NCBI GenBank assembly: GCA_018267615.1
Contig: JAFDYD010000024.1
Location: forward strand, 14,305-78,304
DNA: 64,000 bases
Reading direction: 5' to 3'
Source of the DNA: Bacteroidota bacterium
GTDB taxonomy: Bacteria > Bacteroidota > Bacteroidia > Chitinophagales > Chitinophagaceae
In this document: in pieces, positions 35,816 to 51,218 of the stretch
Layout of the letters: every line of letters starts with the position of its first letter
Position numbering within the stretch: the stretch's first letter is position 1
Translations under genes and position numbers: made by a program
The notes under the pieces: generated by a model
What the model was told of the DNA's origin: nothing
Seen by the model: only the letters and a program-made list of their open reading frames with translations
The model's database searches: none

Positions 35816-35862
35816 AGCGATAAGTGCCAAGGAATATTTATTTTACTGAAGAAATAACAAGT

Positions 35863-38058
35863 ATGCGGAAATACATATTCGTCGCCTTACTATATGCTCC
35901 TTATTGTTTTTCACAAACCCATCAGTTGCCACTCCCGGTATATAATCCGGATGCGCCGCAAGTAACAAAAGACTGGTTGCTCTACCCGGTTTCTATAAAG
36001 GCTGAAGTATATAAAAGTATCGACAACAAATCCATCATCTTGTCGAATGGCTTATTACAAAGAGTTTTTCGTTTAAAACCCAATATGGCTTGCACCGAAT
36101 TTAAAAACCTGGTTAATGGAGAGCAGATGATTCGGGCAATAAAACCAGAAGGTCGATTATACATCAATGATAGGGTTTATAATATTGGCGGTTTATACGG
36201 ACAAAAAGAAAATGCATATCTGCAAACAGAGTGGATCGATAGCATGAAATCCGGCTCGCAAGATTTTATGTACGATGATTATGCGATTCAACCTGCACAA
36301 GCCTCTCTCCGATGGAAACCGACAACATGGACGTTGAACAAACAACAGGCGACAGGAATAGAAATCATTTTTAATTATCATTCTCCCCTCCAGGAATTGG
36401 AAGGTCTGCATGTTCAGGTTCATTATGTATTGTATGATGGATTGCCATTGATCAGTAAATCTATAACGGTAACCAATAATGGAAATAAAAAAATTAAATT
36501 AAACCGTGTCGTAAACGAAATACTCGCTACACCCGAGGAAGAAAGTGCCGTTGTCGGTAGCGTCGAGCAAATGAAAAAGCCTCAGGGTATTTATATTGAA
36601 AGTAATTATGCTTTTAATAACGCCATGCGTTATGATATTTCAGATCAAACCACACATTGGCGCATCGACAGCTCTTATACTTCGCAGGTGAATTATAATT
36701 TTCAAACGCCATGCTTATTGGAAGTGTATGTAGAGAGGGGACCCGGTGTTGAATTGAAATTGGGTGATGTTTTTAATTCTATCAAAACATATGAATTGTT
36801 ATTGGATAGCTATGATCGCGAACGAAGAGGATTGAGTATTCGCAAAATGTATAACACCATTGTTCCGTGGACAACGCAGAATCCAATCTTCATGCACCTG
36901 GTGAGCAAAAATGATGAAGAAGTGAAAACTGCAGTTGATCAATGCGCAAATACTGGCTATGAAGCTTTGATTTTAAGTTTCGGGAGTCATTGCGATATAG
37001 AAGATACTTCGGCAAGAAATATTGCAAAATGGAAATCACTTGCAGATTATGCGCATCGAAAAAATATTTTGATTGGAGGATATTCTTTATTCAGCAGCCG
37101 GCGCATTAGTGATGAGGATGATGTGATAGATCCCGTAACGGGAAAACCGGATGCCGGGGCTTTTTTTGGCCATGCTCCGTGTTACGGCAGCAAATGGGGA
37201 CTTACTTATCTTGCTAAAATTAAATTCTTCTTCGAGAAAACCGGCTTTAATATTTTTGAAAATGATGGACCATATCCCGGTGACGTTTGCGCTTCGACAA
37301 CTCATCCGGGACACCATGGACTCGACGATTCTCAATGGAAGCAAATGGAACTGCAGAAAAGTCTTTATCACTGGTGCAATGAAAATGGAATTTATGTAAA
37401 TGCACCCGATTGGTATTTTTTGGATGGAACAAATAAGATCGCTCTTGGATATCGTGAGGTAAATTTTTCTTTGCCAAGAGAACAGCAACTTGTTTTGAAT
37501 CGTCAGAATATTTTTGATGGAACCTGGGAAAAAACTCCTTCGATGAGTTGGGGCTTTGTACCATTGACGAAATATCAGGGTGGTGGACCAGAAGCAGTGC
37601 TCGAACCACTCAACGAACATTTAAAAGAATATGAGGCATTGATGATGCAATATTATGGCGCGGGTGTGCAGGCATGTTATCGCGGTCCACGTTTGTATGA
37701 TACCGAGAAAACAAAACAATTGGTAATTCAAGTTATCAAATGGTATAAAGAATACAGGGAGATATTAAATGCTGATATCATTCATTTGCGTCGTGCGGAC
37801 GGCAGGGACTGGGATGGCTGGATGCATGTAAACCCAACATTGAAAACAAAAGGAATTATGTTTCTTTTCAATCCATCAAAAAATAAAATTGAGCGCAAGG
37901 TTGATATACCTTTATATTATACAGGATTGAATGACCAGGCGATTGTGAGTGAAAAAGCATCGAATCCTAAAGTTTATAAATTAAACAGAGAATATAATAT
38001 TCAACTTGATTTTACAATAGCGCCGGAAAGCTTCACATGGTTCACCATTGAAAAATAG
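35863..38058 (+). CDS. Exported glycosidase-like protein, family not recognised
   Basis: This 731-aa protein starts at the ATG at 35863, which gives a signal peptide (MRKYIFVALLYAPYCFSQ). Its layout is an N-terminal beta-sandwich (about 20-280) followed by a probable TIM barrel (about 330-600) and a small C-terminal beta domain. The barrel has acidic motifs at strand ends, FNIFENDGPYPGD and NAPDWYFLDGTN, plus HPGHHGLDDSQW; this resembles clan GH-D alpha-galactosidases, but I cannot match it to a numbered family. It is followed 3 bases later by a GH29 fucosidase, so a role in trimming a fucose- and possibly galactose-containing glycan fits. Catalytic residues are not established. Confidence 0.65.
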   Translation: MRKYIFVALLYAPYCFSQTHQLPLPVYNPDAPQVTKDWLLYPVSIKAEVYKSIDNKSIILSNGLLQRVFRLKPNMACTEFKNLVNGEQMIRAIKPEGRLYINDRVYNIGGLYGQKENAYLQTEWIDSMKSGSQDFMYDDYAIQPAQASLRWKPTTWTLNKQQATGIEIIFNYHSPLQELEGLHVQVHYVLYDGLPLISKSITVTNNGNKKIKLNRVVNEILATPEEESAVVGSVEQMKKPQGIYIESNYAFNNAMRYDISDQTTHWRIDSSYTSQVNYNFQTPCLLEVYVERGPGVELKLGDVFNSIKTYELLLDSYDRERRGLSIRKMYNTIVPWTTQNPIFMHLVSKNDEEVKTAVDQCANTGYEALILSFGSHCDIEDTSARNIAKWKSLADYAHRKNILIGGYSLFSSRRISDEDDVIDPVTGKPDAGAFFGHAPCYGSKWGLTYLAKIKFFFEKTGFNIFENDGPYPGDVCASTTHPGHHGLDDSQWKQMELQKSLYHWCNENGIYVNAPDWYFLDGTNKIALGYREVNFSLPREQQLVLNRQNIFDGTWEKTPSMSWGFVPLTKYQGGGPEAVLEPLNEHLKEYEALMMQYYGAGVQACYRGPRLYDTEKTKQLVIQVIKWYKEYREILNADIIHLRRADGRDWDGWMHVNPTLKTKGIMFLFNPSKNKIERKVDIPLYYTGLNDQAIVSEKASNPKVYKLNREYNIQLDFTIAPESFTWFTIEK

Positions 38059-38061
38059 AAA

Positions 38062-39495
38062 ATGAAAACACTGATCATTACCACTTGCATTGTTTTTTTC
38101 TTTTTAATATCGTTTGCACAGACGAGTGATTTAAAAAATCCTGTTCCATCCGATCGACAATTGGAATGGAATAAAATGGAATATTATTTCTTTGTGCATT
38201 TCGGTCCGAATACATTTACTGATTTGGAATGGGGAAAAGGAACGGAACATGAAGAAGTGTTTGATCCTTCGCAATTGGATTGCCGGCAATGGTGCCGTAT
38301 CGCGAAAGCCGCCGGTGCGGAAGGTATCATCATCACAGCAAAGCATCATGATGGATTTTGTTTGTGGCCAAGCAAATATTCAACACACACGGTTCGCGAA
38401 AGTAAATGGAGAAATGGAAAAGGAGATGTGTTGAAAGAACTATCAGAAGCATGTAAGGAGTATGGATTGAAGTTCGGCGTTTACTTATCACCGTGGGATC
38501 GCAATCATCCTAAATACGGCACGCCCGAATATAATGATGTATTTGTAAATATGATGAAAGAGATCGTCACGAATTACGGACCGTTGTTTGAATTTTGGTG
38601 GGACGGTGCAAATGGTGAAGGTCCGAACGGAAAGAAACAAATTTATGACTGGCACCGGTTTGAAAAAACCATGCGCGATCTTTCTCCGCAAACAGTTGTG
38701 TTCAGCGATATCGGTCCGGATATCCGTTGGGTTGGAAATGAAAACGGTATTGCGGGAGATCCAAATTGGAATTTGTTAGACACGGCAGGATTCAAACGCG
38801 GTGAAGGGGCGCCGCCAAATGATACATTGAATCACGGTAATGCATATGGGAAGAATTGGATTCCGGCAGAATGCGATGTGAGTATTCGCCCGGGATGGTT
38901 TTATCATCAGCAGGAAGACGGTAAAGTGAAAACGCCTGAAACACTATTTGATTTGTACTTGAAGTCAATTGGCCGTGGAGCACATTTAATATTAAATGTC
39001 CCTCCGGATCGGCGCGGTTTGATTAATGAGCATGATAGTATTAATTTGATTGGTTTCAAAAAATTACGAGATCAGAGTTTCAATACTAACCTTTCAATAA
39101 AAGCTAAACCATATTTCCTGGGACAAGATGGACGAAGGCTGGCTCCTGCTTTGAATGATAACAATACAAATACTTTCGAGTCGATCGAATTGACAAAATT
39201 CGAACCGGCAGAAATTATATTTGAAAAAGATCAACCAGTCAATTGTATAATATTAAAAGAAAATTTAATCAAAGGACAATATTGCGCCAGGTTCCATATG
39301 ATGTTGCGAAATGAAAAAGGTGAATTAGTCAAGCGAATCGACGGAACTACAATCGGGAGAAAAAAAATAATAACTTTTCCGGCGATCAATATCTCAAAAA
39401 TCGGTATTGTCATTGACGATCAAAAAGCTAATACATCGATGGCCGAAATTGAAGCCTACCATATAGATGATCAACTTGTAGAGCACTTGCCATAG
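38062..39495 (+). CDS. GH29 alpha-L-fucosidase
   Basis: This 477-aa exported enzyme hydrolyses terminal alpha-L-fucose. After a signal peptide (LIITTCIVFFFLISFAQ) comes a GH29 barrel with FFVHFGPNTFTDLEWG, the substrate-binding AKHHDGFCLWPSKYS (about 93-107) and the nucleophile Asp181 in FEFWWDGANGEG. A C-terminal beta-sandwich follows. The length and the WWDGANGEGP context match the subfamily with relaxed specificity (GH29-B) rather than the general type, which is inference. It starts 3 bases after the upstream glycosidase-like gene, so the two are cotranscribed. No SusC/SusD pair lies nearby, so this is not a classical polysaccharide-utilisation locus. Confidence 0.92.
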   Translation: MKTLIITTCIVFFFLISFAQTSDLKNPVPSDRQLEWNKMEYYFFVHFGPNTFTDLEWGKGTEHEEVFDPSQLDCRQWCRIAKAAGAEGIIITAKHHDGFCLWPSKYSTHTVRESKWRNGKGDVLKELSEACKEYGLKFGVYLSPWDRNHPKYGTPEYNDVFVNMMKEIVTNYGPLFEFWWDGANGEGPNGKKQIYDWHRFEKTMRDLSPQTVVFSDIGPDIRWVGNENGIAGDPNWNLLDTAGFKRGEGAPPNDTLNHGNAYGKNWIPAECDVSIRPGWFYHQQEDGKVKTPETLFDLYLKSIGRGAHLILNVPPDRRGLINEHDSINLIGFKKLRDQSFNTNLSIKAKPYFLGQDGRRLAPALNDNNTNTFESIELTKFEPAEIIFEKDQPVNCIILKENLIKGQYCARFHMMLRNEKGELVKRIDGTTIGRKKIITFPAINISKIGIVIDDQKANTSMAEIEAYHIDDQLVEHLP

Positions 39496-39664
39496 TAAAC
39501 TAACGGCAATGCTTGCAGTATTTTCCCGATAAACGCCAAGTAATATTTCTAATTCTGTAAAATTATTTTCAGGTCGTTACGTTTTTGTTAATGTGTGAAG
39601 CAATTTGGAACATTAATTGCAGATACAGCAGCGTAAAATCCATTCCTTCAAAACTAACCGATCT

Positions 39665-41323
39665 ATGGAAAAAATAGTTTCTACCAGTCTTGAAAACAGT
39701 CGGGTTAAAAAATCATTTTTTGATGGTAATGGCCTGAATGAATATACCGGTTCATGGGACACAACCGATGTTGTACATCTTCTTAAAAGAACCATGTTCG
39801 GCGCTACGATTGACAATGTCAATTATTTTAAATCATTAACCATGTCGCAGGCGGTTGATGAATTATTGACACCTACTCCAGCTCCAACTTCTCTTCCTCT
39901 TAATAATTATAGTTCGGATGGATATACAGATCCTACTGGTGTTGCTGCATGGGATACATGGATCAACACGGGTATCGATTATCCGGATGATGAAATGAAT
40001 CAGAAAAGAGTTAATTCAATGCAATGCTGGTGGACGGGGCAATTGGTGAATCAACAAAGAAGCATTCATGAAAAGATGACCATCTTCTGGCATAACCATT
40101 TTGGTGTTGATGCTGGTCAGCATCTCGCGGATATTCCTGCAAAACTCTGGTTTGATCATTATCATACATTACGCGCAAATGCATTGGGTAATTTGAAGCA
40201 ACTTGTAAAAGCAATTACGCTGAATCCTGCAATGCTTATTTACCTCAATGGTAATACAAATAAAAAAACTGCACCCAACGAAAACTACGGGCGTGAGTTG
40301 CAGGAATTGTACACTATCGGAAAAGGATCCGGTTCGCATTATACGGAAGATGATGTTCGCTCTGCTGCAATTGTTTTAACAGGACATGCAGTTGATACAA
40401 ATTTTGCGTATTATTTTGACGCCGGCGGGCATGAAGATAAAAACAAATCTTTCTCCAACTTCTATGGCGGCACTATGATTACCGGTCGCTCGGGCGCAGC
40501 AGGTGCCAATGAACTGGACGATTTGATCACGATGCTCTTTGCAACTACCGAATGTGCAAAATTCATCTGCAGAAAAATATATAGCTTCTTCGTGTATTAT
40601 AAAATCGATGATTCAATAGAGAACACGATCATCACACCACTTGCACAGGTTTTTCGTGATAGCGGTTATGATATACCAACTGTACTTTCTGTTCTTTTTA
40701 AAAGCGAACATTTTTATAACCTTGCTTATTCGAGTGCTTGTATTATTAAAAGTCCTCTCGATTTTGTTCTCGGATTAACACGGGAATTTGAAGTGAAGCT
40801 TCCTGACTCTACGGATATGCCTTCCAGTTATACAGCATGGGGAATGCTGAATCAGCATTCGGCTACTTTGCAACAGCAGATTTTGGGAATTGAACAAGTG
40901 GCTGGCTGGTTCCCTTACTATGAAGGTCCGGTTTATCACGAACTATGGATCAATTCGGTTACCTACTCCGAACGAAATGCATATACCGACGTCATGATTA
41001 CCGTTGGCGATATGATGAGCATGATTACAATGATTATCGACCCGCTTGCATTCGCTGCAAAATTGCCGAATCCTTCCGATCCCACATTACTCATCGAAGA
41101 TTCATTGAATATCTTATATCGTGTGCCTTTATCTGATGATTCGAAATTATATCTCAAACAAACGATATTATTAACCGGCCAAACAACAGATTATTATTGG
41201 ACGCAGGCATGGAACGATTATATCGCCAACCCCAGTGATATGGTGGCAAAGGAAACCGTGCTTACACGCTTGCAGAGTTTGTATAAATATTTGATGAATT
41301 TGCCAGAATACCATTTATCATAA
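39665..41323 (+). CDS. DUF1800 family protein
   Basis: This 552-aa protein belongs to the DUF1800 family, whose biochemical role is unknown. I chose the ATG at 39665 (MEKIVSTS); a further 16 codons are open upstream. Family motifs are HLLKRTMFGAT, EKMTIFWHNHFGVDAG, NPAMLIYLNGNTN, NYGRELQELYTIGKG and AKFICRKIYSFFVYYK. No signal peptide is apparent. It is followed 17 bases later by a DUF1501 gene, its regular partner in many phyla, and then by a T9SS type B protein. The consistent pairing suggests the two act together, perhaps in envelope or extracellular assembly; that is inference. Confidence 0.9.
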   Translation: MEKIVSTSLENSRVKKSFFDGNGLNEYTGSWDTTDVVHLLKRTMFGATIDNVNYFKSLTMSQAVDELLTPTPAPTSLPLNNYSSDGYTDPTGVAAWDTWINTGIDYPDDEMNQKRVNSMQCWWTGQLVNQQRSIHEKMTIFWHNHFGVDAGQHLADIPAKLWFDHYHTLRANALGNLKQLVKAITLNPAMLIYLNGNTNKKTAPNENYGRELQELYTIGKGSGSHYTEDDVRSAAIVLTGHAVDTNFAYYFDAGGHEDKNKSFSNFYGGTMITGRSGAAGANELDDLITMLFATTECAKFICRKIYSFFVYYKIDDSIENTIITPLAQVFRDSGYDIPTVLSVLFKSEHFYNLAYSSACIIKSPLDFVLGLTREFEVKLPDSTDMPSSYTAWGMLNQHSATLQQQILGIEQVAGWFPYYEGPVYHELWINSVTYSERNAYTDVMITVGDMMSMITMIIDPLAFAAKLPNPSDPTLLIEDSLNILYRVPLSDDSKLYLKQTILLTGQTTDYYWTQAWNDYIANPSDMVAKETVLTRLQSLYKYLMNLPEYHLS

Positions 41324-41340
41324 CCAACCAACTGATACCT

Positions 41341-42921
41341 ATGGAAAGAAGAAAATTTTTAAAAAACCTGCTTCCTGCGTCAGCAATTTTTCCTTCTCTA
41401 TTGAATGGATTTACTGTAAAAGCTTATGGAGCTGGTTTTTTTGAAGCGTTGACTGGAGCCGCAGATAACGATCATGTGCTGGTATTAATACAATTGTCTG
41501 GTGGGAATGACGGATTGAATACATTGGTTCCAATCAGCAATTACGGCGATTATAATAATGTCCGAACCAATATTGCTATTCCGCAAGATAAAATTCTCCG
41601 ACTCGATAATTATGAAAAGGCAGGACTTCATCCGTCGATGACGGGAATGCAAAAATTATACAACGAGGAAAAGTTAGGTGTTCTGACTTCTGTTGGATAT
41701 CCTTCTCCCAATCAATCACATTTTCGATCAACAGATATTTGGCTGACAGGTGCAGATGAAAATCAGTATTTAAATACCGGATGGACCGGAAGATTTTTAG
41801 CCAACACATATTCTAATTATCCCATCGGATATCCAAATGCAGAAATGCCGGATCCATTAGCTATTCAGATTGGTTCGGTATTATCACCAGTGTTTATGGG
41901 GCCCGGAGGATTTACGGCGATGGCTGTTCCGACCGACACTGATTTTTATAATCTCATCAACGGAATCGCTGATCCTGCACCAGATTCACCAATGGGAACT
42001 GAGTTGACATACTTGCGTGCCATCGCGCGACAAACAAATAAATATGCAGATGCAATTATCAACGCTGCAAAAAAAGTAACTAATCAAAGTACATATCCTG
42101 CTAATAATTATCTCGCGGCTCAATTAAAAACTGTAGCAAGATTGATCGGTGGCGGATTGAAAACAAGAGTTTATATGGTGAGTATGGGAGGTTTTGATAC
42201 GCATGGTGGACAAGTGCAGGCTGGCAATACGATTGCAGGTAATCATGCGGGTTTACTCAAACAACTTTCAGACGCAATCACTGCATTTCAAACCGATCTG
42301 GCTGGTCTCGGAGCAAGTAAGCGCGTAATGGGAATGACATTTTCAGAATTCGGCCGACGTATTAAATCAAATGGTAGTGCAGGAACAGATCACGGTGCCG
42401 CACAACCGGTGTTTGTATTTGGTGATTATATTAAACAAGGTGTATTGGGAAATCCTCCCGACTTATCTTCGCAGATAGGCGTAGAGGATAGTCTACCGAT
42501 GCAGTATGATTTTCGTTCCGTGTATTCTTCGATTCTTCGTGATTGGTTTTGTGTTGATCCTAACGATATCACCACAATGCTCTTCAAAAATTATCAATAC
42601 TTGCCATTCATCCAGGGAACAGCTTGTAAAGTTATCAACCCGGATGTGTTAGGATTTAACCTGATCACCAATTATCCAAATCCATTTGATCAGTCGACTA
42701 CAATTACATTCAAGACAAACGGCGGACATACACTCATCCAGATATTTGATACTGCAGGTAGATTGATTGCGGTGCCGATCGATAAAAATTACGACGGTCC
42801 CGGTGAATATACTATCACATTTTATGCTGGACAATTAGCCGGCGGTGTTTATTATGGACGCTTGCAGAACGGATCAACGCAACAGGTAAGAACGATGTTA
42901 AAAATAAGGTCAGGACATTAA
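41341..42921 (+). CDS. DUF1501 family protein with twin-Arg signal and T9SS domain
   Basis: This 526-aa protein is a DUF1501 member. It begins MERRKFLKNLLPASAIFPS, a twin-arginine (Tat) type signal, so it is probably exported folded, perhaps with a metal cofactor. Family motifs are LIQLSGGNDGLNTLVPI, MGGFDTHGGQ and TFSEFGRRIKSNGSAGTDHG, with metal-ligand-like His and Asp residues; the fold is related to the alkaline phosphatase/sulfatase group. A type A sorting domain closes it (LITNYPNPFDQSTTITF, LAGGVYYGRL). Combining Tat export with a T9SS tail is notable. It lies between the DUF1800 gene (17-base gap) and a T9SS type B gene (3-base gap). Confidence 0.9.
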   Translation: MERRKFLKNLLPASAIFPSLLNGFTVKAYGAGFFEALTGAADNDHVLVLIQLSGGNDGLNTLVPISNYGDYNNVRTNIAIPQDKILRLDNYEKAGLHPSMTGMQKLYNEEKLGVLTSVGYPSPNQSHFRSTDIWLTGADENQYLNTGWTGRFLANTYSNYPIGYPNAEMPDPLAIQIGSVLSPVFMGPGGFTAMAVPTDTDFYNLINGIADPAPDSPMGTELTYLRAIARQTNKYADAIINAAKKVTNQSTYPANNYLAAQLKTVARLIGGGLKTRVYMVSMGGFDTHGGQVQAGNTIAGNHAGLLKQLSDAITAFQTDLAGLGASKRVMGMTFSEFGRRIKSNGSAGTDHGAAQPVFVFGDYIKQGVLGNPPDLSSQIGVEDSLPMQYDFRSVYSSILRDWFCVDPNDITTMLFKNYQYLPFIQGTACKVINPDVLGFNLITNYPNPFDQSTTITFKTNGGHTLIQIFDTAGRLIAVPIDKNYDGPGEYTITFYAGQLAGGVYYGRLQNGSTQQVRTMLKIRSGH

Positions 42922-42924
42922 TTT

Positions 42925-44646
42925 ATGATTCAATATCGGCATATTCAATATATCAGGCGATTCATAACGGGTATGCTCATACTCTTTTTAAGTGTGCATG
43001 TTCATGCGCAACAAAAAGATAGTATCACCTATAATTCAACTTGCGTGAATTATAAAATACAATTCAGCACTTCCATATACGCCATGATTGAATTTCCAGA
43101 TAAAGTGATTTGGAATTTTGGTGATCCTGCTTCTGGCTTCTATAATACCGCTGCTACAAAATATCCGACACATGCTTTTGCGAGTCCCGGCTCTTACTAT
43201 ATAAACGTAGCGGTAATAAATGCTGGCGATACAACAAAATTGCAGGATACTATCACAGTGGTTGCTCCTTTAGCGTATAATTTCGGCCCGGATATTTTTT
43301 TATGTGAAAAGGGCGACACGACAATCGTAGGTCCCACGATTCCCGGAGCTGTGTATGAATGGAATGATGATAGCCTGACAAAAACTCCGTCGCTTCATGT
43401 AACGAAAACAGGTGAATACACTTTGAAGATTGATGGCTGCGCTGTTACTGACAGTATTGGTGTTTACTTCAGTGAACAGCCAAAAATAAAATTGGGAGAT
43501 GATCATGTGCTCTGTGCAAACGAAATTCTTACATTGAATGCCACAAGTCAGAATGGAACTTATACATGGAGATTGAATGGAACCATTTTGTCAGACACAA
43601 CCGGGCAACTGCCCGTTGTTGATCCCGGTGGTCAATATATAGTTGTTGTAACCGTTCCAGGATGCGGAACTTTTTCTGACACTGCAAATATCACTTTCGC
43701 ATCTTTGCCCGCACCACCTTTTTCCTTGGGACCAGATACATTATTATGCCCAAAACAAATATATCCTTTAACAGCATCAGTAGCCGGAGCAACTGCTTAT
43801 AATTGGAGTACAGGTGCGAGAGACAGCACAATCCAAATTACAGATCCCGGTGTGTATTGGGCATTTGTAACTGTGAGTGGACAATGTGAAGTAGTGGATA
43901 CCGTCGAAGTCACTTACAGAGGAGATAAAAATCTCGATTTCCATGACACTGCAGTATGTAAAGGAAGTACTTTAATTCTGAATGCAGATTTTGGTACAGG
44001 AACTTATAACTGGACATCTGACCCGCCGCAGCGAAATGATCAGAATCAAACTGGTCAATCGACTTATTATGTGTATGAACCCGGGTTGTATAAAGTGATC
44101 GCTTCGGTTGGACAATGCGTTTATACCGACAGTCTGCATGTTGCTTTTGATGATAGTTTGAAAACAGACATCGGACGCGATACTTCATTATGTATTGGTG
44201 AAGAATATATTTTACATGTAAAATCAAATGCCAATACATTCTCATGGCAGGATGGAAGCGTAGCCACTTCGTATTTAGTAACCGGCCCTGGAACGTACAC
44301 GCTTGTTTCGCAAAATGGTTGTGGACTTGATACTGTGAGTGTGAAAATAGATATGCGTCATTGTGAGTGTGAGCTGACCGTACCAAATGCGTTTACGCCT
44401 AACGGTGATGGACGCAACGAAACGTTCAGACCACTACATCCTTGTAAGATGACAGATTTTACTTTCAAAATATTTGATCGTTACGGAGAACTCGTTTTCC
44501 AATCTTCCGACTTCTCGAAAGGATGGGATGGTACATTCAATGGCTTAAAAGTATCCAATGGAACTTATGTGTGGATGGCCACCTATATCAATTCAGATAC
44601 ACAACAGAAAAAATTCAAGAAGGGATTTGTGGTGTTGATACGATGA
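42925..44646 (+). CDS. Secreted protein with T9SS type B (gliding-associated) domain
   Basis: This 573-aa surface protein has a signal peptide (FITGMLILFLSVHVHAQ) and a PKD-like first domain (VIWNFGDPASGFYNTAAT). Four or so repeats follow, each with a phrase such as LGPDTLLCPKQIYPLTAS and a C-x-G strand motif (DIGRDTSLCIGEEYILHV), about 85 residues apart. The C-terminal type B sorting domain is clear: VPNAFTPNGDGRNETF, FKIFDRYGELVFQS, GWDGTFNGLKVSNGTYVW. Type B cargo is normally loaded onto T9SS through PorP/SprF partners. It is the last gene of the DUF1800-DUF1501 operon (3-base gap) and may act as the surface-anchored scaffold of that set. Confidence 0.9.
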   Translation: MIQYRHIQYIRRFITGMLILFLSVHVHAQQKDSITYNSTCVNYKIQFSTSIYAMIEFPDKVIWNFGDPASGFYNTAATKYPTHAFASPGSYYINVAVINAGDTTKLQDTITVVAPLAYNFGPDIFLCEKGDTTIVGPTIPGAVYEWNDDSLTKTPSLHVTKTGEYTLKIDGCAVTDSIGVYFSEQPKIKLGDDHVLCANEILTLNATSQNGTYTWRLNGTILSDTTGQLPVVDPGGQYIVVVTVPGCGTFSDTANITFASLPAPPFSLGPDTLLCPKQIYPLTASVAGATAYNWSTGARDSTIQITDPGVYWAFVTVSGQCEVVDTVEVTYRGDKNLDFHDTAVCKGSTLILNADFGTGTYNWTSDPPQRNDQNQTGQSTYYVYEPGLYKVIASVGQCVYTDSLHVAFDDSLKTDIGRDTSLCIGEEYILHVKSNANTFSWQDGSVATSYLVTGPGTYTLVSQNGCGLDTVSVKIDMRHCECELTVPNAFTPNGDGRNETFRPLHPCKMTDFTFKIFDRYGELVFQSSDFSKGWDGTFNGLKVSNGTYVWMATYINSDTQQKKFKKGFVVLIR

Positions 44647-49667: not shown

Positions 49668-51218
49668 ATGGCTTTAGCAAGAATACTTTGGGTAGATGAT
49701 GAAATTGAAAGTTTGCAATCGCAGATATTATTTCTTCAGAACAAAGGATACGAAGTAAATGCAATGACCAATGGTTTTGACGCCATTGAATTTGTTAAAG
49801 AGAATCCCGTGGATGTTGTGTTACTGGATGAAACGATGCCAGGCATCACCGGCCTTGAAACACTTGCAAAGATCAAAGAATTATATCAACAGGTACCTGT
49901 TGTGCTGATCACAAAAAATGAAACGGAGAATTTGATGGATGAAGCGATCGGCAGCCAGATCAGCGACTATCTTATCAAACCAGTAAATCCCAACCAGGTT
50001 TTATTAAGCCTGAAAAAAATAATCGATAACAAAAGACTTGTTGCTGAAAAAACGACGACTGCATATCAGCAGCAGTTCCGTGATTTGTTCATGGCGTTGA
50101 ATGATAATCCTGACTATAATCAGTGGATGGATATCTACAAAAAACTTGTTTTTTGGGAATTGGAAATGGAAAAAAGTGATAGCCCCGAAATGCGGGAGAT
50201 ATTGCAGTCACAGAAACAGGAAGCGAATAATGAATTTTTTAAATTCATTTCTAAAAATTATTCGCGTTGGATAAAATCGGGTGATGCACCTGTGCTGTCT
50301 CACTCATTATTTCAATCGAAAGTATTTCCGCATCTTGAAAAAGGAACGCCTTTATTTTTTGTATTGATCGATAATTTGCGTTTCGATCAGTGGAAAGCAA
50401 TCCAACCGATTTTTGCGGAGAGTTTTCGGATAATCAGTGAAGATAGTTTTTATAGCATATTGCCAACTGCAACGCAATATAGCCGCAATGCCGTGTTCGC
50501 TGGGTTACTGCCTGTTGATATAGAAAAGCAGTCACCAACGCAATGGAAAAATGACGACGAAGAAGGTGGAAAGAATTTGCATGAAGAAGAATTTTTCAGG
50601 GGTCAGTTGAAGAGGTTGAAAAAAGACAATCTGCGTTTTTCTTATACAAAAGTTTTAAATCACCAGGCGGGCCAGGATCTTGTGAATAATATCCATAACA
50701 TGATGAATAATGATTTAAATATCATCGTGTATAATTTTGTGGATATGCTTAGTCATGCGCGCACAGAAATGGAAGTATTGAAAGAACTGGCGAGTGATGA
50801 AACCAGTTATCGTAGCATCACTGCAAGCTGGTTTGAACATTCGCCCTTGCACCAGGCCTTGAAAAAAATTGCAGATAAAAAAATCAATATCGTACTTGCT
50901 ACGGATCATGGAACGGTTCGTGTTAAAACGCCGTATAAAGTGATCGGGGATAAACAAACAACCACAAATCTTCGCTATAAACATGGTCGTAATTTGAATT
51001 ACGAAGCCAAAGACGTATTGGCTTTTCGTGATCCCAAAGAAGCAGGATTGCCGGTACCCACCGTGAATTCATCTTTTATATTCGCACGTGGTGATGGATT
51101 TCTATGTTACCCCAACAACTACAATTATTACGCGAACTATTATCGCAACACATTTCAACACGGCGGTATCAGTATGGAAGAAATGATCGTGCCGGTGATA
51201 AGAATGACAAACAAATAA
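49668..51218 (+). CDS. porX: T9SS response regulator PorX (receiver-PglZ)
   Basis: PorX is the orphan-like response regulator that controls the type IX secretion system together with PorY and SigP in Porphyromonas. The 516-aa protein has a receiver domain (1-120) with Asp10-Asp11, phospho-Asp54 (VVLLDETMPGITGLE) and Lys104 (DYLIKPVNPNQ). A helical linker leads to a PglZ/alkaline-phosphatase-like domain (about 205-516) with LIDNLRFDQWKAI, LPTATQYSRNAVFAGLLP, DHGTVRVKTP, and QHGGISMEEMIVPV. Known PorX hydrolyses cyclic oligonucleotides with bound zinc; the metal ligands seem intact here. It fits the seven T9SS cargo genes in this window. PorY is not nearby. Confidence 0.94.
   Translation: MALARILWVDDEIESLQSQILFLQNKGYEVNAMTNGFDAIEFVKENPVDVVLLDETMPGITGLETLAKIKELYQQVPVVLITKNETENLMDEAIGSQISDYLIKPVNPNQVLLSLKKIIDNKRLVAEKTTTAYQQQFRDLFMALNDNPDYNQWMDIYKKLVFWELEMEKSDSPEMREILQSQKQEANNEFFKFISKNYSRWIKSGDAPVLSHSLFQSKVFPHLEKGTPLFFVLIDNLRFDQWKAIQPIFAESFRIISEDSFYSILPTATQYSRNAVFAGLLPVDIEKQSPTQWKNDDEEGGKNLHEEEFFRGQLKRLKKDNLRFSYTKVLNHQAGQDLVNNIHNMMNNDLNIIVYNFVDMLSHARTEMEVLKELASDETSYRSITASWFEHSPLHQALKKIADKKINIVLATDHGTVRVKTPYKVIGDKQTTTNLRYKHGRNLNYEAKDVLAFRDPKEAGLPVPTVNSSFIFARGDGFLCYPNNYNYYANYYRNTFQHGGISMEEMIVPVIRMTNK

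Follow-up and report, generated by a model that had tools for sequence, protein, structure and literature searches.

A twin-arginine start and a type IX sorting domain on one DUF1501 protein: a possible Tat-to-T9SS relay with a signal-less DUF1800 partner

Cargo of the type IX secretion system (T9SS) is described as crossing the inner membrane through Sec. Passages of a 2023 review give all T9SS effectors a Sec-dependent signal and have them cross unfolded (PMC10202324), Sec-dependent signals of T9SS cargo also appear in passages of a 2017 review (PMC5445135) and a 2025 paper (PMC12618676), and a passage in one T9SS source has the cargo fold in the periplasm. Here we describe a locus in a 64,000-nucleotide stretch of the genome of a soil-type Bacteroidota bacterium (GCA_018267615.1, contig JAFDYD010000024.1, positions 14,305 to 78,304; this whole stretch is called the window below). 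In it a DUF1800 gene, a DUF1501 gene and a gene for a T9SS type B protein follow one another, and the DUF1501 protein has a start typical of the twin-arginine translocation (Tat) pathway at one end and a T9SS type A sorting domain at the other. Because described T9SS cargo is Sec-exported, a DUF1501 with a Tat signal would be a new cargo class for T9SS. Among the matches listed in the PMC open subset, no title or abstract opening describes Tat-exported T9SS cargo, which does not imply its absence from print.

Transport by Tat and then by a second machine through the outer membrane is established, in the relevant passages of PMC4899797, for PlcH and PlcN of Pseudomonas aeruginosa. DUF1501 would follow the same two-step plan, and PlcN (9gy2) is among the Foldseek matches of its model; however, the second step is the type II secretion system there and T9SS here, and the identity in the Foldseek alignment is 11%. 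A DUF1800 and DUF1501 pair in one operon, with the twin-arginine motif on DUF1501, is described beside bacterial chitin synthases (PMC5122149), but in proteobacterial hosts, and the portions of that paper drawn on here mention neither a sorting domain nor T9SS. The window neighbours scanned include no chitin synthase. T9SS type A cargo with a Sec signal shares the type A sorting domain, which PorV handles according to passages of PMC12618676, whereas the inner-membrane signal of DUF1501 is Tat-type. In Tat hitchhiker complexes, such as Ni-Fe hydrogenases and formate dehydrogenases, the signal is on one subunit only (PMC10924467, in the passages concerned), as it is in this pair. Unlike those complexes, the pair has no known redox cofactor, would need an extra outer-membrane step, and has relatives of the partner, about one-third, with a twin-arginine motif that lacks a hydrophobic core.

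Gene order and the two ends of DUF1501

The window is part of contig C16 of a 5.37 Mb genome. The operon consists of three plus-strand open reading frames (ORFs), 39665-41323 (DUF1800, 552 aa), 41341-42921 (DUF1501, 526 aa) and 42925-44646 (the type B gene, 573 aa), with intergenic gaps of 17 bases and then 3 bases. This order, spacing and domain content had been proposed in an initial annotation, and the ORF list and profile scores bear them out. Relatives were compared in a set of named loci, the best 80 of at least 589 confirmed stretches; these were picked by similarity to the window, are no census of the family, and come from Bacteroidota and a few named Ignavibacteria, Kapaibacterium and Chlorobiota. 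The three-gene order was also found in 11 other genomes of the same genus, in L120 of the named loci, and in L047 up to the contig edge. Since the order recurs in this way, the arrangement is taken to be beyond chance.

The DUF1501 protein (PF07394, 68 bits; cut-off 27) begins MERRKFLK in translation, as the annotated twin-arginine motif RRKFLK requires. A Tat-type signal peptide covers residues 1-28 (41341-41424, plus strand), with the motif at 41347-41364, a weak hydrophobic core and a V-x-A ending at residue 28, the cleavage site being placed by eye. In an alignment of 79 DUF1501 sequences (the window and 78 from the 80 named loci), RRx[FLIM] is found near the start in 76, the window included, and RK in two; in the remaining one, L116, the RR was lost to start trimming and the ORF begins MKRRDF. 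All 79 have RR or RK at this position. The hydrophobicity of the core, given as the best 15-residue Kyte-Doolittle mean and used as a proxy for signals, has a median of 1.36 in 139 motif-bearing DUF1501 ORFs (three duplicate loci included) and is 1.35 in the window, against a median of 2.11 (range 1.54-2.43) in 11 Sec-type T9SS proteins picked from this genome for their clear starts. Residues 10-39 of the DUF1501 model have a pLDDT below 50, which is in line with a signal peptide.

The genome itself provides a control. Of its 30 type A sorting-domain matches (E ≤ 0.001), one has a Tat-type start, namely DUF1501, and a DUF1501 paralogue in a second pair (L033), which is without a sorting domain, has the same twin-arginine start. 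TatA, TatC and SprA are all encoded. By motif and hydrophobicity, DUF1501 differs from ordinary type A cargo in having a Tat-type start in place of a Sec signal, and the twin-arginine motif, the weakly hydrophobic core and the TatA and TatC genes are those looked for in a Tat substrate. A motif that scored as Sec only, named at the outset as the result that would tell against this reading, is not what is seen by these two measures.

At the C-terminal end, the T9SS type A sorting domain was placed at residues 445-521 (42673-42903, plus strand), where PF18962 Por_Secre_tail (31.7; cut-off 27) and TIGR04183 (27.7; cut-off 23) confirm the annotated domain. It has a Foldseek match to the mirolase C-terminal domain 8qb1 and profile matches to solved T9SS sorting domains. 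Using a profile built in this analysis (E ≤ 0.01), the type A domain was found on 75 of the 82 DUF1501 ORFs that are 350 aa or longer, from 79 named loci, L131 being excluded as a duplicate, and on 102 of 164 DUF1501 ORFs in all loci collected. Of the 40 plasmid matches listed, 11 were inspected (ten from other phyla, one from Bacteroidota), and in ten of these DUF1501 has an arginine pair near the start; the exception is on a Paraburkholderia plasmid, and its start position is not settled. A DUF1501 with a Tat-type start and a T9SS tag is more general than first described. The idea that the protein passes through Tat and then T9SS gains from the motif, the hydrophobicity, the conservation and the in-genome control, and extends far beyond the window; passage itself, judged from these sequence features, is likely.

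Two more strong DUF1501 matches in the genome (>480 bits; G000:C17:34877-36148 and G000:C53:54241-55515) have no DUF1800 match on their contigs. The sole TatA/B/E match of the genome (G000:C16:83591-83731) lies on the operon's contig, ∼5.3 kb past the window end.

Predicted fold and candidate active site of DUF1501

The DUF1501 model (79 sequences; mean pLDDT 88.0) has a predicted alkaline-phosphatase-superfamily fold. Its best VIA-align match is the nucleotide pyrophosphatase/phosphodiesterase 7mw8 (Z 19.3, rmsd 3.3, 245 residues aligned), and its Foldseek matches include sulfatases, alkaline phosphatases, LtaS and PlcN, with E from 7.8e-6. None of the solved structures in a profile search matched the DUF1501 domain itself. 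The model shares with 7mw8 the core fold and conserved Asp/His motifs after strands, although identity over the aligned part is 16%.

Invariant in all 79 aligned sequences are D57, S126, H127, D286, H288, D350 and H351. Asp57 of a GGND motif (41509-41511), Asp286 and His288 of GFDTH (42196-42204), and Asp350 and His351 of TDHG (42388-42393) are candidate metal ligands, and Ser126-His127 (41716-41721) would be a candidate nucleophile at a helix start and its neighbour, all on the plus strand. Judged by motif and secondary structure, these residues appear to sit where the superfamily has its metal ligands and nucleophile; the assignment was made against what we take to be the ligands of the nucleotide pyrophosphatases/phosphodiesterases. 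A structural check for metal sites had been suggested for a pair then called functionally unknown. It gave a predicted superfamily fold and invariant Asp/His motifs, with one classical His ligand not located, and narrows the function of DUF1501 to this predicted fold; a metal-dependent phospho- or sulfo-ester enzyme is a guess at the class of chemistry only.

The DUF1800 partner and the proposed route

The DUF1800 gene (39665-41323, plus strand; PF08811, 292.1 bits, cut-off 26.1) encodes a protein of 552 aa with a predicted mainly helical fold and no signal peptide. No hydrophobic stretch was found upstream of the domain in the window protein (best 15-residue mean -0.25), and an alternative TTG start at 39617 adds none. 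The lack of a signal, already noticed in the initial annotation, is also the rule: of 160 DUF1800 genes counted, after exclusion of 10 ORFs (duplicates, contig-edge pieces and fragments), 140 have no signal, 19 are Sec-like and one (L159) is Tat-like. Hydrophobic starts were called at a cut of 1.6 and then hand-corrected. L033 was dropped, its hydrophobic stretch lying upstream of the likely start, L073 and L074 were added as Sec-like and L159 was separated as Tat-like; L018, L048, L062, L079 and L116 (starts of 1.3-1.6) and the first DUF1800 of L053 (1.56, short) were kept as having no signal.

DUF1800 lies directly before a DUF1501 in 155 of the 160 cases, and 153 of these 155 partners have an RR or RK motif. 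The DUF1501 partner has a sorting domain for 92 of 136 paired signal-less DUF1800 genes versus 0 of 18 Sec-like ones (Fisher p 1e-8; the sequences are related and not independent), and on the DUF1800 tree the signal-bearing state (nine rows included) needs one change. That sorting-domain partners go with signal-less and not with Sec-like DUF1800 suggests hitchhiking. Plasmid-borne DUF1800 proteins have lipoprotein-like starts in Vibrio, Sphingomonas and Agarilytica, a Sec-like start in Paraburkholderia, and no clear signal in Persicobacter, Miltoncostaea, Paracoccus and Rhizobium; the starts in Azospirillum, Acidisarcina and Thermus are unclear, cut off or interrupted. Since copies elsewhere are lipoprotein-like or Sec-like, DUF1800 seems to work outside the cytoplasm, and for a signal-less copy riding on DUF1501 would be the simplest route. 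With no signal of its own and a gene beside that of DUF1501, DUF1800 may be a Tat hitchhiker on DUF1501, a reading towards which we lean slightly.

The DUF1800 model has a mean pLDDT of 90.4 and a pTM of 0.90. Nothing convincing was matched in the PDB (Foldseek best E 0.041, VIA-align best Z 4.6, profile best E 0.84), which does not imply a new fold. E206, N207, R210, E211, E214, D230 and H256 are invariant in the 73 sequences of the DUF1800 alignment.

A twin-arginine motif is also found on DUF1800 proteins. The start pattern M-x(0-3)-RR-x-[FL] is present in 27 of 75 DUF1800 proteins of the named loci, and in 25 of these the sequence after the motif is polar or weakly hydrophobic (best 15-residue mean ≤0.69), so that the motif is coreless; L159 has an apparently complete Tat signal and L116 is intermediate. 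The median core of the 27 is -0.01, compared with 1.36 for DUF1501. As a control, 426 other genes of the named loci contain the motif in five cases, of which two look like ordinary Tat proteins and one is coreless. The window DUF1800 is without the coreless motif. On a tree of 150 DUF1800 sequences, presence of the motif, scored by a broader pattern in 43 rows, takes 18 changes where shuffles average 37, which shows clustering with repeated change and is not put forward as a sign of any cause or selection. The motif could be either the remnant of a lost Tat signal or an aid to docking of the complex at the Tat receptor, and its presence on the partner would offer a new handle on Tat recognition of complexes.

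Taking both proteins together, we narrowly prefer a Tat-to-T9SS relay of DUF1501 with DUF1800 hitchhiking, yielding a surface metal-dependent phospho- or sulfo-ester enzyme. DUF1501 would fold in the cytoplasm, most likely together with signal-less DUF1800, and the RRKFLK signal would take it through Tat with DUF1800 carried along. Once in the periplasm, DUF1501, possibly still in its complex, would be passed on by its type A domain to SprA, the translocon of T9SS. Sec and T9SS would separately deliver the type B protein, which might be a surface scaffold, an adhesin or a client of the enzyme. If this is true, T9SS accepts cargo folded in the cytoplasm, a large and easily recognised family becomes a natural test of the limits of SprA passage, and a widespread two-gene module of unknown function gains a place at the cell surface and a probable enzyme class. 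A version in which a DUF1501-DUF1800 complex, assembled in the cytoplasm and showing the Tat receptor twin-arginine motifs on both proteins in many lineages (a full signal on DUF1501, a coreless RRxFL motif for docking on DUF1800), crosses Tat and then T9SS in folded form on one sorting domain seems to us quite improbable; no description of such a folded multi-subunit relay was found among the matches listed in the PMC open subset.

Several points, the published Sec signals of T9SS cargo among them, weigh against the relay with hitchhiking. A complex of ∼1000 residues would need to pass SprA, whose capacity for this is in question, and the PorU-like protein of the genome scores under its family cut-off. 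Hydrophobicity is a proxy, and its ranges overlap (99th percentile of DUF1501 1.93, lowest Sec-type value 1.54). In the type A proteins L203 (RRLF) and L182 (RRVY), two arginines precede a stretch of strong hydrophobicity; we read both starts as Sec. L159, a Chlorobiota record, combines a sorting-domain DUF1501 with a DUF1800 that has an apparent Tat signal of its own, and the 18 Sec-like pairs come mainly from two genome groups, so they are not 18 independent cases. For the enzyme, Foldseek TM-scores over the full DUF1501 model are low (≤0.43 versus superfamily targets), and for the classical two-metal site one His could not be placed among the invariant residues.

The alternative that survives best also counts among these points: the relay would serve DUF1501 alone, and DUF1800 would be a cytoplasmic proofreading or maturation partner that never leaves the cell. 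The genes of many Tat substrates sit next to one for a dedicated cytosolic chaperone, a role that would suit the 140 of 160 DUF1800 proteins without a signal, and the coreless motif seen on 25 of 75 might engage the Tat recognition site. However, a protein confined to the cytoplasm fits poorly with the 19 Sec-like starts and with the lipoprotein-like copies of Vibrio, Sphingomonas and Agarilytica, which point to work outside the cytoplasm, or with the full Tat signal that the L159 DUF1800 seems to have. We regard a cytoplasmic DUF1800 as a tentative possibility, on the unlikely side.

Some further DUF1800 genes stand apart. In L242 (Thermus thermophilus plasmid 4), DUF1800 is annotated as two pieces around an IS982 transposase, beside DUF1501. 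Two genomes from another family of the order, G035 (L070-L077) and G055 (L078-L080 and L088), have eight DUF1800 matches each; several of those in G055 are fragments, and four in G035 have Sec-like starts.

The type B gene and the genomic setting

The third gene (42925-44646, plus strand) encodes a type B T9SS protein of 573 aa with a Sec-type start, a weak PKD match below the cut-off, five repeated units and a CHU_C/TIGR04131 domain. This sorting domain spans residues 485-572 (44377-44640, plus strand; PF13585 CHU_C 69 bits, cut-off 27; TIGR04131 63.2, cut-off 35). The five units contain Cys and are, in our reading, Ig-like. Orthologues (phmmer >700 bits) follow the pair in the 11 other same-genus genomes, and L120 also has one (profile score 781); the contig of L047 ends before it. 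Thus the conservation of the third gene next to the pair, as initially supposed, holds in the window's clade (13 loci including the window) and does not hold elsewhere. Because most sorting-domain pairs outside the clade have no type B neighbour, and neither has L053, a second sorting-domain pair within the genus, we take the type B protein to be a putative scaffold at the surface, or a client, acquired as an accessory in one lineage. Of the whole finding, the third gene is the part that generalises least.

Two other groups of named loci (L113-L115, and L163 with L165) also have type B genes next to their pairs; in the named loci, type B genes make up 6 of 147 pair-adjacent genes versus 1 of 385 others (Fisher p 0.002; rows not independent). 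The genome contains 16 type B matches (two score below the cut-off), one of which lies two genes from the second pair (L033). These counts, with the immediate adjacency in 13 loci of one clade, favour a reading in which the type B protein is the pair's substrate or client, with the enzyme modifying either this adhesin or a glycan attached to it. We consider this unlikely, as most sorting-domain pairs are without a type B neighbour and relatives of the third gene are present in 142 of 149 genomes of the class. Weakest is the proposal that the twin-arginine motif is incidental and that DUF1501 is exported by Sec as other T9SS cargo, which passages in the reviews (PMC10202324, PMC5445135) and the overlapping core hydrophobicities would allow, but which is made very unlikely by the RR or RK with a weak core throughout the alignment, by the lack of a Tat-type start on any other type A match of the genome, and by the same start on DUF1501 proteins that lack a sorting domain, the paralogue in this genome among them.

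A PorP/SprF-like gene directly downstream of a type B gene is common but not universal. Passages of PMC12618676 describe orphan type B proteins. The genome has six PorP/SprF matches, none of them on the contig of the window's type B gene. Type B genes in varied orientations lie beside or near pairs of other groups and second pairs in L041, L113, L114, L115, L163, L165, L033, L069 and L022.

Directly upstream of the operon and on the same strand, 35824-39495 (plus) contains a GH36-like gene (below the cut-off) and an alpha-L-fucosidase gene, 3 bases apart. A functional link to these glycoside hydrolases was dropped, as relatives differ there in gene length and strand. A gene at 49668-51218 (plus), ∼5 kb from the operon, combines a response-regulator receiver with a PglZ domain, the architecture of the T9SS regulator PorX. 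In the named loci, with one member scanned per group, the neighbours that recur are a thiolase, DHO_dh, TerC, an ABC transporter and a TonB-dependent receptor, and the first four are read as local synteny. A group of ∼800-aa genes, whose L090 member is a TonB-dependent receptor, is present in 13 named loci (for example L089-L093 and L095), and 10 of the 13 have it on the same strand, one or two genes further downstream.

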